Shown: positions 20,495-25,042 of the stretch, in pieces
Numbering within the stretch: position 1 is the stretch's first letter
Layout: each line of letters begins with the position of its first letter
Origin: Rhizobium sp. 007
GTDB taxonomy: Bacteria > Pseudomonadota > Alphaproteobacteria > Rhizobiales > Rhizobiaceae
Direction: 5' to 3'
NCBI RefSeq assembly: GCF_015353075.1
Contig: NZ_CP064187.1
Location: forward strand, 3,906,001-3,970,000
DNA: 64,000 nt
Notes under the pieces: model-generated
What the model saw: the letters and a program-made list of their open reading frames with translations, nothing else
What the model was told of the DNA's origin: nothing
Database searches by the model: none
Position numbers and translations under genes: made by a program

Positions 20495-21847
20495 ATGATA
20501 CCCAGAGGCCAGACCGCAGTGAGTGAAGCAGCGCAGGAGATCGACAAACTCATGGGATTGCATCCCAAGGGTTTCGATCTTTCGCTCGATCGCATCACCC
20601 GCCTTCTCGAAGTTCTCGGCAATCCGCAGAACCGGCTGCCGCGGGTCATTCATGTTGCCGGAACAAATGGCAAGGGTTCGGTTACAGCCTTTTGCCGCGC
20701 ATTGCTGGAAGCCGGTGGCTACGGCGTCCATGTCCATACCTCGCCACATCTGGTCAACTGGCATGAGCGCTATCGGATCGGTCTTAAGGGCGGCCGGGGT
20801 CAGTTTGTCGACGATGCGGTTTTTGCAGAAGCGCTTCGACGCGTTGCTGAAGCGAATGCCGGCCAGAAAATCACGGTCTTTGAAATCCTGACGGCGGTGA
20901 CTTTCCTTCTCTTTTCCGAGCACCCGGCCGATGCGGCAATCATTGAGGTCGGTCTCGGCGGACGGTTTGATGCGACAAACGTCATCTCCGATCCGGCCGT
21001 TTCGGTCATCATGCCGATCTCGCTCGATCATCAGCCCTATCTCGGCGACCGCGTCGAACTGATCGCGGCTGAAAAAGCCGGCATCATGAAGCCCGGCTAT
21101 GCCGTGGTGATCGGCCATCAGGAATATGACGCAGTCCTGGATGTCCTGATGTCGACTGCCGAGCGCTTGCATTGCCCGACCGCTGTCTTCGGCCAGGATT
21201 ACATGGCGCATGAGGAGTATGGCCGCCTCGTCTATCAGGACGAATTCGGTCTCGCCGATCTGCCGTTGCCGCGCCTTCCCGGCCGCCATCAATATGCCAA
21301 CGCTGCGGCAGCGATCCGCGCCGTCAAGGCAGCAGGTTTCGTTGTCACCGAAGCGATGATGGAAAAGGCTATGAATTCCGTCGAATGGCCCGGTCGCCTT
21401 CAGCGGCTGACCGAGGGCCGCCTTATCGCACACGCCCCGGCCGGTGCCGAAATCTGGGTCGATGGGGGCCATAATCCCGGTGCTGGCGAAGTTATCGCCG
21501 AGGCCATGGCGAATTTCGAGGAAAAGCATCCGCGGCCACTCTACCTCATAACCGGCATGATCAATACCAAGGACCCGGTCGGCTATTTCAGGGCCTTTGT
21601 CGGGCTTGCGGAAAAGGTCTTCTGCGTACCGATCCGTGGCAGCGAGGCGATGATCGATCCGGTGATCCTGTCAAATTCTGCCTATGATGCAGGCCTAGTC
21701 GCAGAGCCGAGGGCCACAGTCGGTGAAGCGTTGGAGGCGATCCAGGAGATCCTTGATCCGCAAGCTCCGGCGCCCAGGATCCTGATCGGCGGGTCACTCT
21801 ATCTCGTCGGCGATGTTCTTGCTGACAACGAAACACCCCCGAAATGA
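20495..21847 (+). CDS. folC: Folylpolyglutamate synthase / dihydrofolate synthase
   Basis: A 450-residue Mur-ligase-family enzyme that adds glutamate to dihydropteroate and folates. The ATP P-loop is VAGTNGKGSVTAF; also present are VGLGGRFDATNV, KAGIMKPGYAVV and WVDGGHNPGA. An alternative start is GTG 20519 (MSEAAQEIDKL). This copy is complete; its last ~690 bp are repeated in decayed form at 24272-24687, across the efflux/TetR cassette. It ends the trp-accD-folC operon. Confidence 0.95.
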   Translation: MIPRGQTAVSEAAQEIDKLMGLHPKGFDLSLDRITRLLEVLGNPQNRLPRVIHVAGTNGKGSVTAFCRALLEAGGYGVHVHTSPHLVNWHERYRIGLKGGRGQFVDDAVFAEALRRVAEANAGQKITVFEILTAVTFLLFSEHPADAAIIEVGLGGRFDATNVISDPAVSVIMPISLDHQPYLGDRVELIAAEKAGIMKPGYAVVIGHQEYDAVLDVLMSTAERLHCPTAVFGQDYMAHEEYGRLVYQDEFGLADLPLPRLPGRHQYANAAAAIRAVKAAGFVVTEAMMEKAMNSVEWPGRLQRLTEGRLIAHAPAGAEIWVDGGHNPGAGEVIAEAMANFEEKHPRPLYLITGMINTKDPVGYFRAFVGLAEKVFCVPIRGSEAMIDPVILSNSAYDAGLVAEPRATVGEALEAIQEILDPQAPAPRILIGGSLYLVGDVLADNETPPK

Positions 21848-21860
21848 AAGAAGCCCGGTC
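21171..21860 (+). repeat. Left copy of the folC 3'-end duplication
   Basis: The 3' part of functional folC and 13 bp beyond its stop codon, ending at GCCCGGTC. It is matched by 24272-24687, with internal deletions there. Homology breaks exactly inside what would be the first arm of the folC/trxA terminator hairpin, which survives only in the right copy. Confidence 0.9.
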
Positions 21861-21889
21861 GAAGCCCAGCCTCTAACCGAAATGTGGAA

Positions 21890-21927
21890 GCATTCTGCAG
21901 ACTCAATTGTCGCAGAATGCCTATTTT
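21890..21927 (+). terminator. Possible replacement terminator after folC
   Basis: Perfect 9-bp inverted repeat GCATTCTGC/GCAGAATGC (21890-21898 and 21912-21920) with a 13-nt loop, then CTATTTTT. It lies just inside the inserted segment and could stop folC transcription now that the original hairpin is displaced to 24.7 kb. Confidence 0.55.
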
Positions 21928-21998
21928 TGGGACGTCGTAAACTAAGTCGCAAAACTGTCGCTTCGATCGGGGATTTTCGCGGCACCGCTTTCGGATCG

Positions 21999-23465
21999 CT
22001 ATTCCGGCAGCGTTCTTGGCAGCCAGAGCCACGCAATGATTCCGACGACAAGCATGAGCAACCCTCCGACTCCGACTGCGACATGCAACCCGATAAGGAA
22101 GGCTTCTTTGGCCTGTGCGACGGTCTCAGGGGGAAGGCCCGGCCGATCCAGGGTCTCGTTGAGCGTGCCCGCTACGCCGGGACCAAGCAGGCGGAAGCTC
22201 AGGGCGGCCAGCGATCCGAGCAGAGTGATGCCGAGCGCATTTCCCAGCTCGTTGCTGGTTTCCGCGATGGATCCGGCCGCGCCGGCTCGTTCGGGCGAAA
22301 CCGCCGAGACAGCGACCTCGGCCACGAGGCTGAACGACAGTCCGTAGCCGATGCCGGCGATGAGCGTTGATGCGATGAAGGCCGCGCCACCAACGTCGGT
22401 GCTCGTAAGCAGCAGCAAAAAGACGCCCGCACCTATCAGTAGATGCGTCGCCACAAGAGCAGTCTTGCGGCCGATCCACTCCACGATGCGCGCGGTGCCC
22501 ATGCACGTCGCGGTCAGCACGATGGCCCCCGGCAGGGTCAGCAGCGCCGTGGTAAAAACATCGAAGCCAAGCACCGATTGCAGATAGATCCCGGACAGGT
22601 AGCCGGCGACAGACCAGACGACGAGGGATAAAAGCCCGGTCAGGATTGCGATGGAGAAAATGCGATCTCGAAATAGGCTGAGATCGAGCAGCGGATAGTC
22701 GATGCGGGTCTGTCGGCGCAGGAACAGCGCGAGGGCAAGAATGCCGATGATCCCGCCGCCGGACTGCGCCGCCGTAAAGCCCTCCGCTGCGGCGATCTTG
22801 AGAGACCAGGTGAACAGCAGGATGCCGACGAACGACAGCAGGAGACTCGGCAGGTCGATCCGACCATAGGTCGTCGAGCGGACCTCGCGAAGCAGGATCG
22901 GCGCTACGATCAGGAAGGCGAGCACGACGGGGACATTGATGAGGAACACGACGCCCCACTCGAACTGCCTGAGCAACATGCCGCCGATCAGGGGGCCAAT
23001 GGCGAAGCCGGCTGCGAATGTCGCGGCGAAGATGCCGATGGCCCGCGCGCGCAGCCGCGGATCGGGAAACAGGGCGCTGACGATTGCCAGCCCGGACGGC
23101 AGCAATGTCGCACCGCCCAGCCCCATGAGCGCCCGTGCGGCTATCAGCATCAATGGAGATTGCGAATAGGCCGCGCCGAGCGATCCCGCACCGAATACCA
23201 CCGCGCCCACCATAATCAGCTTGAGCCGCCCATAGCGGTCACCGATATTGCCGAAGACGATGAGCAACGAGCCGACCACGAAGCCGTAGATGTCGAGAAT
23301 CCAGAGCGCCTGGTCGGCTGTCGGCGTCAGGGCGGACGTGACGTGCGGCATGGTGAGGTAGAGAATCGAGCCGTCCATTGCGACGAGCAGGACCAGCGGC
23401 AGCACGGCCATGAGGCCGAGCCATGCCTTTCGGTTCACCGAGCTTGGAAGTGCCATATCGGTCAT
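21999..23465 (-). CDS. MFS transporter, DHA2 (QacA/EmrB-like) drug efflux family
   Basis: A 488-residue membrane protein with about 14 predicted hydrophobic segments. Motif A of the major facilitator superfamily is GNIGDRYGRLKLI between TM2 and TM3, and the antiporter motif C region is GIFAATFAAGFAIGPLIGG. It resembles QacA/SmvA-type proton antiporters exporting cationic biocides or drugs. ATG 23465 (MTDMALPSSVNRKAW) is preferred to upstream in-frame starts that would run through the promoter. It is divergent from a TetR gene, the usual arrangement of a repressor-controlled pump, and sits inside the inserted cassette. Confidence 0.92.
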   Translation of the reverse strand: MTDMALPSSVNRKAWLGLMAVLPLVLLVAMDGSILYLTMPHVTSALTPTADQALWILDIYGFVVGSLLIVFGNIGDRYGRLKLIMVGAVVFGAGSLGAAYSQSPLMLIAARALMGLGGATLLPSGLAIVSALFPDPRLRARAIGIFAATFAAGFAIGPLIGGMLLRQFEWGVVFLINVPVVLAFLIVAPILLREVRSTTYGRIDLPSLLLSFVGILLFTWSLKIAAAEGFTAAQSGGGIIGILALALFLRRQTRIDYPLLDLSLFRDRIFSIAILTGLLSLVVWSVAGYLSGIYLQSVLGFDVFTTALLTLPGAIVLTATCMGTARIVEWIGRKTALVATHLLIGAGVFLLLLTSTDVGGAAFIASTLIAGIGYGLSFSLVAEVAVSAVSPERAGAAGSIAETSNELGNALGITLLGSLAALSFRLLGPGVAGTLNETLDRPGLPPETVAQAKEAFLIGLHVAVGVGGLLMLVVGIIAWLWLPRTLPE

Positions 23466-23556
23466 CGGGCAAGTCCTTTTGCGAACGGCGCGCGCAGGCG
23501 TCCCGCTTCGGCCGCTGACGGAAGACCAGCGGATGGTTGCGTTGGAAGGGTTGTAT

Positions 23557-23591
23557 CTATATACTTTAAGTAAGTTACATTTGGTATATAG
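23557..23591. promoter_or_regulatory. Candidate TetR operator in the efflux/tetR intergenic region
   Basis: Perfect 8-bp inverted repeat CTATATAC/GTATATAG (23557-23564 and 23584-23591) with a 19-bp spacer, in the most AT-rich part of the 128-bp divergent promoter region. The right arm ends 2 nt before the TetR start codon. Position and symmetry suggest autoregulation and pump repression; binding is inferred. Confidence 0.55.
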
Positions 23592-23593
23592 AG

Positions 23594-24211
23594 ATGTCAA
23601 GCACACCCGATGACACGCAGATTGCCCCGAAGCGAGTCCGTTTGAGCCGTGAACAGCGGCTACGCCAGCTTCTCGACGTGGCGTGGCGGCTCGCGCGCGA
23701 AGAAGGCGCCGATGCGCTGACGCTGCCGCGCATGGCGGACGAGGCCGGTGTTACAAAGCCGGTAATCTACAACCATTTCGGTACCCGCAACGGCCTGTTG
23801 ACGGCTCTCTATCAGGACTTCGACGCGCGCCAAACGGAGGTGATCGACGCCGCGCTTGAAGCCTGCGCCCCGATCTTGGAAAGAACCGCAAGGGTGATCG
23901 CTTCGTCCTACGTCGAATGCGTGCTGGCCCAGGGCCGTGAGATTCCAGGCGTGTTGGCCGGGCTTGCCGGCTCCCCCGAACTGGAGGCCGTCAGACGCGA
24001 CTATCAACTGGCGTTCATCGAGAAATGCCGAAAGGCGTTGGCTTCGTTCACGGGCCCAAAGGGCATCATGCAGTCCAGCTTCTGGGCGGTGCTCGGGGCG
24101 GCCGATTCGTTATCTCATGCCGCTGCGACGGGAGAGATCACCATCGAACAGGCTCAAGGCGAACTCTATGAGATCATCGTTGCAATGGTGAGCAGGAGCT
24201 TTCACACTTAA
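23594..24211 (+). CDS. TetR/AcrR family transcriptional regulator
   Basis: A 205-residue repressor-type protein. The N-terminal HTH (about residues 20-66) includes LLDVAWRLAREEGADALTLP, and MADEAGVTKPVIYNHFGTRN is the recognition region; the C-terminal ligand domain is alpha-helical. The ATG directly abuts the inverted repeat and no Shine-Dalgarno sequence is evident. It presumably controls the adjacent divergent efflux pump. Confidence 0.9.
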   Translation: MSSTPDDTQIAPKRVRLSREQRLRQLLDVAWRLAREEGADALTLPRMADEAGVTKPVIYNHFGTRNGLLTALYQDFDARQTEVIDAALEACAPILERTARVIASSYVECVLAQGREIPGVLAGLAGSPELEAVRRDYQLAFIEKCRKALASFTGPKGIMQSSFWAVLGAADSLSHAAATGEITIEQAQGELYEIIVAMVSRSFHT

Positions 24212-24271
24212 CGGGCGGCAGGCAATCGCAGGACTCCGGCAGTTTCGCGACGAAGCTATTCGGCTCATGCA

Positions 24272-24671
24272 ATTGCCCGACCGCTGTCTTCGGCCAGGAT
24301 TACATGGCATGAGAAATATGGCCGCGTCGTCCATCAGGGCGAATTCGGTCTCGCCGATCTGCCGTTGCCGCGCCTTCCCGGCCGCCATCAATATGCCAAC
24401 GCCGCCGCAGCGATCCGCGCCGTCAAGGCAGCAGGTTTCGTCGTCACCGAAGCGATGATGGAAAAGGCTATGAATTCCGTCGAATGGCCCGGCCGCCTTA
24501 TCGCACACGCCCCGGCCGGTGCCGAAATCTGGGTCGATGGGGGCCAGTGGTGAAGCGTTGGACACGATCGAGGAGATCCTTGATCCGCAGGCTCTGGCGC
24601 CCAGAATCCTGATCGGCGGGTCGCTCTATCTCGTCGGCGATTTCTTGCTGGCAACGAAATACCCCCCGAAA
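24272..24671 (+). pseudogene. Decayed 5'-truncated second copy of folC
   Basis: The sequence aligns with folC from 21171 to the stop but lacks the first 225 codons. Damage includes a 2-nt loss at TACATGGCATGAG (frameshift), a 24-nt deletion between GCCTT repeats (corresponding to 21396-21424), and about 248 nt lost between two GGGCCA repeats (corresponding to 21466 and 21711). Scattered substitutions are present throughout. No start or intact reading frame remains, so no product is expected. It ends at the original folC/trxA terminator. Confidence 0.9.
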
Positions 24672-24673
24672 TG

Positions 24674-24701
24674 AAAAAAGCCCGGTCAGAGCCGGGCTTT
24701 T
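24674..24701. terminator. Terminator between folC remnant and trxA
   Basis: Ten-bp stem AAAAGCCCGG/CCGGGCTTTT with a 6-nt loop, giving T-runs on both strands. It terminates trxA on the minus strand and was presumably also the original folC terminator. Confidence 0.9.
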
Positions 24702-24721
24702 CATATCATTGTGCAATGAAA

Positions 24722-25042
24722 TTAAGCGGCGTTCGAAATCCAGCTCGAAAGAGCAGTCTTCGGAGCAGCGCCAACCTTGATATCGGCAACTTCACCAGCC
24801 TTGAAAATGGCAAGCGTGGGAATCGAGCGGACGCCAAACTGGGCTGCCAGTTCCGGGTTTTCATCGATATTAAGCTTCGCGACCTTAACCTTGCCTGCGA
24901 GTTCGGTTGCAATTTCCTCAAGGCTCGGAGCGATCATCTTGCACGGACCGCACCACTCGGCCCAAAAATCAACGACGACGGGTTCTGCAGATTCCAGAAC
25001 TTCCGACTGGAAGTTGTTGATATCGACTTTCACGGTAGCCAT
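24722..25042 (-). CDS. trxA: Thioredoxin 1
   Basis: A 106-residue thioredoxin with the active site [11 protein letters not shown] (Cys pair near residues 31 and 34) and the cis-proline region [12 protein letters not shown]. It reduces cytoplasmic disulfides. Length and fold match E. coli TrxA. It lies downstream of addA in the leftward direction after a 75-nt gap and probably has its own promoter. Confidence 0.97.

Follow-up and report, generated by a model that had tools for sequence, protein, structure and literature searches.

The window analysed here is a stretch of 64,000 nucleotides of a Rhizobium-group chromosome (genome G000, contig C1, positions 3906001-3970000), and coordinates given without further qualification count from its first letter. 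It contains an intact folC, a divergently arranged transporter and regulator pair, a decayed copy of the 3′ end of folC, and trxA (Table 1). This order, which the original prediction had proposed, is borne out by direct repeats and by gene calls. The pair lies by itself between the two folC copies, and the insert indeed contains no transposase gene. Among NCBIfam models the nearest to the MFS protein are LfrA, QepA, and SmvA, all far under their cut-offs, and an Rfam scan of 21800-24800 gave no match.

Table 1. Features of the folC-trxA locus in the window
Feature	Position	Strand	Remarks
folC, intact, 450 aa	20495..21847	+	NCBIfam folC subfamily above cut-off; resident copy, terminator hit by element
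Left copy of predicted 10-bp target duplication, CGGTCGAAGC	21856..21865	+	Inside folC terminator hairpin
Left terminal inverted repeat (TIR), CCAGCCTCTAACCGAAATGTGGAAG, 25 bp	21866..21890	+	Starts inside folC terminator
B end of element	21866..21984	+	~80 bp deleted vs full-length ends
Hairpin + TATTTTT within B end	21890..21926	+	-19.1 kcal/mol
MFS efflux-type transporter, cargo	~21999-23465	-	PF07690; start codon inferred
TetR-type regulator, cargo	23594..24211	+	PF00440; divergent from MFS gene
Remnant of element's A end	24223..24252	+	Outer part with right TIR gone
Truncated A end joined to folC nt ~674	24266..24272	+	TGCA common to both sides
Decayed folC 3′ copy	24272..24674	+	
Uninterrupted folC/trxA terminator	24674..24701	+	
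trxA	24722..25042	-	
Whole truncated cassette element	21866..24269		

The direct repeats link 21171-21860 with 24272-24687 (193 nt at 95%, 56 nt at 100%, 93 nt at 92%, and 37 nt at 100%) and far exceed chance. The right copy matches folC from nucleotide ~674 to beyond the stop codon; the first half of the gene is gone, and internal deletions of 24 and ~250 bp have occurred. It is a copy of the local folC, to which it is 95% alike. As predicted, it retains an intact terminator beside trxA, with a hairpin followed by a T run (-20.5 kcal/mol). The insertion broke the terminator of the left folC: its hairpin now reaches only -8.3 kcal/mol, compared with -18.2 kcal/mol at the uninserted site of a relative, G101, which reads AAGCCCGGTCGAAGCCGGGCTTTT where the window has 21856-21865. 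The hairpin and T-rich stretch within the B end could replace the broken structure.

The 135 bp downstream of folC matched many places in the genus, and the first 26 nt of this stretch recur there as inverted pairs ~740 bp apart; a plasmid search with the left spacer returned weak matches only. Five of the loci (L217, L218, L219, L226, and L232) share both the TIR and related subterminal sequence with the window, and carry, instead of a transposase, a GNAT acetyltransferase or a small uncharacterised protein. The family TIR is 25 bp long, approximately CCAGCC[CA]CTAAC..AAATGTGGAAT, from which the window copy differs at two bases. At the other end of the insert, 24223-24252 matches four other A ends locally, with 0 to 2 of 2000 shuffles equally good. 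An A-end subterminal stretch, without a TIR, also has an 87.5% match over 56 nt on Agrobacterium plasmids. Only the left TIR is kept in the window, and we therefore file the element as a truncated derivative of a mobile insertion cassette; the loss of the right TIR and of the right target copy counts against arrival as a cassette.

When searched with the pattern CAGCCCCTAACNGAAATGTGGAA at up to 2 mismatches, the TIR was found at 51 places in 35 of the 148 genus genomes, with one place in G000 itself, and the reversed pattern used as a control was found at none. Two genomes that carry the same insert as the window, G078 and G093, are missing from the 35 because their TIRs have decayed. A wider pattern, at up to 1 mismatch, occurred in 18 of 394 evenly drawn Rhizobiaceae genomes, and no TIR was found outside the family in 376 genomes of an order-wide draw of 397, the 3 matches of which all belong to the window's genus.

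TIRs were paired blind to their flanks, with the presence of two TIRs as the selection rule, which yielded 27 nonredundant pairs in 85 loci; L282 falls outside the rule and is not among them, and three of those counted (L277, L329, and L337) are possibly false, given that their flanks disagree. A 10-bp target duplication is exact in 12 of the 27 pairs and present at up to 2 mismatches in 20. When left and right flanks of different elements were compared as a control, 5 of 702 agreed at the latter level, and shifting the flanks by 1-3 bases gave 1 match over six tests of 27. The 7 pairs without a duplication at up to 2 mismatches speak against the cassette reading. At L340:1492-3246 a second TIR begins immediately beyond the 10-bp duplication that borders a complete element, giving the appearance of elements abutting at one site.

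With the target restored by joining the flanks, a strict terminator test was passed by 14 of 27, compared with 45 of 2000 random positions. The other 13, one of two autonomous copies included, are evidence against the cassette reading; some have a hairpin without a T run, and L272, L339, L340, and others have no good hairpin under this test. The preference for terminators is strong, not absolute. With regard to mobility, one GNAT cassette of 740 bp is 94-96% identical at L217, L218, and L219, and the 1-kb flanks of these loci are unrelated save for one 100-bp match, which shows that the cassette is mobile although it has no enzyme gene itself. L218 and L232, which share one site with alike flanks, are therefore one old insertion.

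What the cassettes carry is varied. We scanned 28 proteins in all, from the main open reading frames of 22 of the 27 pairs plus one protein of L282, which is not a member of the 27; three further pairs are 90-96% copies of the L217 cassette, and the remaining two are the autonomous copies. No transposase domain was found by Pfam in the 28 cargo proteins, 9 of which have no Pfam match. The others include GNAT, a second GNAT, transglutaminase-like, PCMT methyltransferase (two), GST, lipocalin-like, PhyH-like, cupin, and PhzF-like proteins, together with combinations of nitrilase-like with AAA kinase, ClpP with AHSA1, aldo/keto reductase with TetR, and DUF2442 with DUF4160. In L294 a regulator is joined to an enzyme, a plan close to the regulator and pump of the window.

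The two autonomous copies are 1886-bp elements with family TIRs, exact 10-bp duplications, and one long open reading frame. The encoded protein of ~578 aa has a DDE fold, including the RNase H-like catalytic fold, and its best structural match is ISCth4. Alignment of 52 sequences suggests D223 and E511, both invariant, and D364, conserved in at least 90%, as candidate catalytic residues. There is a weak InsA-type zinc ribbon, and some homologues are annotated as IS1 family transposases. A weak match of residues 124-193 to the NCBIfam IS1 transposase model NF033558 scores 35.9 bits, under the cut-off of 100. This protein is the likely partner of the cassettes and a candidate for action in trans. 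Among the 148 genus genomes it was found in G015 and as a fragment in G168 only; the absence of any match in the three carriers of the window's insert weighs against the cassette reading. Distant (~22%) full-length relatives lie on Enterococcus and Staphylococcus plasmids, where they are annotated as insertion element or hypothetical protein.

A genome of another genus, G347, shows the same target. Its contig C14 ends with folC, AAGCCCGGTCGAAGC, and TIR, in that order, and its contig C18 begins with TIR, CGGTCGAAGCCGGGCTTTTT, and trxA; the assembly breaks inside the element, and it is through the flanking genes that the two contigs are connected. Its TIRs lie at the same base of the folC-trxA terminator as in the window, with the same 10-mer outside both, and the left half of the window is identical (21856-21865, then the TIR). 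No sign of a folC duplicate or remnant was seen beside trxA in the readable sequence of these contigs, which break inside the element. The two contigs give the expected insertion product, with a 10-bp duplication and a trxA free of any folC remnant.

Within the genus, the cassette was found joined to folC-trxA in G000, G078, and G093 only (148 genomes, among the matches listed, with two candidates scored per genome, such that a diverged copy could be missed). The arrangement is therefore not deep in the genus, and its status as an insertion, as the original prediction held, is upheld by near relatives in which folC adjoins trxA without an insert (G101, G075, G163, G164, G131, G147, and G016). 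Likewise, the TetR protein is at least 95% identical in the three carriers, 81% in G065, and at most 64% elsewhere, among the matches listed. We rejected the junction as a frequent hot spot, as folC and trxA are separated by at most 300 bp in 75 of 77 measurable loci (80 named); the two wider gaps are 2540 bp at the G093 locus and 737 bp at L197.

Because the right joint is common to all three carriers and the left joint can be read in both G000 and G093 (G078 has a ~25-bp deletion over it), the insertion is most likely one event; in G093 most of the folC remnant has since been lost. Flank trees pair G000 with G078 on 35 polarised sites and G093 with G101 on 33, up to both joints. Of 11 patterns in conflict with this, 4 bring the carriers together, and neither these nor the groupings support horizontal exchange of the insert among carriers. 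Since G101 groups with the carrier G093 on the flanks and yet has no insert, it probably lost the insert or received an uninserted allele, a loss or exchange that must be added to the cassette reading and counts against it. Such a loss would be precise if the two folC ends had crossed over with each other.

The pump genes are intact, under purifying selection, and inherited since the carriers split. Their inheritance follows from synonymous divergence, which is 0.09-0.17 for the MFS gene, much as for folC (0.11-0.15) and trxA (0.10-0.18); dN/dS of the MFS and TetR genes is ~0.15 among the three carriers, with the TetR value for G078-G093 left out. Relatives of the gene pair (window 22000-24187) occur elsewhere, at 75% DNA identity on Sinorhizobium meliloti plasmids and 82% on R. 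bangladeshense plasmids, and TetR relatives at 85-87% occur in Shinella, Paracoccus, and Brucella grignonensis. At 5 plasmid loci with such relatives, R. bangladeshense and S. meliloti among them, no TIR-like sequence was found with up to 6 mismatches allowed; these loci give no sign of a TIR element around the pair, a further point against the cassette reading.

Taking both sides together, we consider it very probable that the MFS/TetR pump arrived as the cargo of a mobile insertion cassette that prefers terminators and has no transposase. The cassette would have entered the folC/trxA terminator in an ancestor of the window's species group, and we infer that it probably did so in trans, through a DDE transposase resembling the 578-aa product of the autonomous copies. 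In the original prediction, the cargo was delivered by a small circle that contained both the pump and a fragment of the folC 3′ end and that inserted by a single (Campbell) crossover. The final geometry fits such an event well, with a full folC, the cargo, a 5′-truncated folC, and the resident terminator beside trxA. A Campbell insertion would join the cassette to folC at the end of a homologous donor fragment, whereas the left joint is a TIR at the insertion point of a mobile family, found again in the same terminator in G347. Nor does the left folC look restored, as the prediction had supposed, or clearly imported: it follows the flank tree, and its 3′ part shows no clear donor sequence. 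As an account of how the pump arrived, the circle is therefore quite improbable. A circle from an already inserted locus could nevertheless perform the second step, and here the idea keeps some value, as crossover with an empty folC allele may explain the later duplication.

For that second step, the best reading is that the element lost its right end in the duplication of the folC 3′ end. Since nothing interrupts the right terminator, its source was either an uninserted copy or an earlier duplication. The order and route we infer are an illegitimate joint between the right end of the element and folC nucleotide ~674, and homologous recombination with an uninserted folC-trxA allele, which would have eliminated the right TIR while supplying a further folC 3′ end followed by an intact terminator; the extra folC copy would then have decayed. 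In this exact form the sequence of steps is a tentative proposal, rated at a little under even chances. The allele could be supplied by a sister chromosome, another strain, or a circle. Such an exchange, a plasmid folC tail with trxA, and a prior tandem duplication would each yield the observed structure, and our ranking of the three is not firm. It is also conceivable, although we rate it as doubtful, that the folC 3′ copy and trxA returned from a plasmid, joined illegitimately to the element at folC nucleotide ~674, and recombined through trxA. The R. sullae symbiosis plasmid does have a folC tail and trxA, with homology from folC nucleotide ~723, as do plasmids of the R. leguminosarum group; but in the carriers trxA branches as the flanks do, and the R. 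sullae copy is 91% like the remnant, the local folC 95%. A tandem duplication of the folC 3′ end might instead have come first, with the cassette entering the first terminator and a deletion removing its right end up to the second folC. This yields the final structure without a second allele, but such a duplication without the element occurs in no relative whose junction was read, and we think it unlikely. Gene conversion between the two folC copies is not claimed (2 two-against-two sites for it, 4 for orthology).

It is worth recording that trxA recurs on rhizobial plasmids together with folC 3′ tails that vary in length (L041 and L202-L205). On R. sullae pWSM1592_2 (L041) trxA and the folC tail lie near nodI, nodC, and nodB, and in R. 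leguminosarum ATCC 14479 a folC tail lies near nifN with two trxA copies.

Mobile insertion cassettes are a known kind of element. MIC231 of Bacillus cereus has a passenger gene within inverted repeats and is mobilised in trans by the IS231A transposase, and mic-qnrD of Proteeae makes a 2-bp target duplication (PMC3913671). The cassettes described here resemble both in having inverted repeats around a passenger, no transposase gene, and a target duplication; they differ in the repeats themselves, in the 10-bp length of the duplication, in their preference for terminators, in the breadth of their cargo, and in the DDE protein that is their likely partner. IS elements targeting REP palindromes likewise insert into extragenic palindromes (PMC1525189), whereas the cassettes mostly hit intrinsic terminators of single genes and have passengers in place of a transposase. 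In the titles and opening parts of abstracts that were searched, a body of text outside subscription journals and ISfinder, we found no description of this terminator-preferring family, its target, or its likely enzyme. That enzyme recalls IS1 and IS1595 in its weak zinc ribbon and weak IS1 match, and departs from them in its length, its score relative to the IS1 cut-off, and its best structural match.

Integron gene cassettes are small one- or two-gene units that have no mobility gene and are mobilised in trans. The elements described here are likewise small and without a mobility gene, and in one case (L340) seem to abut; unlike integron cassettes, they have TIRs and 10-bp duplications that point to transposition. 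It is possible, and we put this forward with slightly more doubt than conviction, that Rhizobiaceae have an integron-like form of gene sharing by transposition, in which transposase-less cassettes with widely differing cargo owe their movement to a rare, unnamed DDE transposase that acts in trans and recognises terminator hairpins, with safe intergenic sites and possible stacking at one terminator. The element in the window is an old, vertically kept, and half-broken cassette, the pump of which is still under selection. The 578-aa protein is named as a testable enzyme for cassette movement, and a transcription terminator can be a target of transposition that spares the genes. If true, this would explain how single accessory genes, such as acetyltransferases, GST, ClpP, methyltransferases, and regulated pumps, come to be dispersed over rhizobial genomes without a mobile gene close by.
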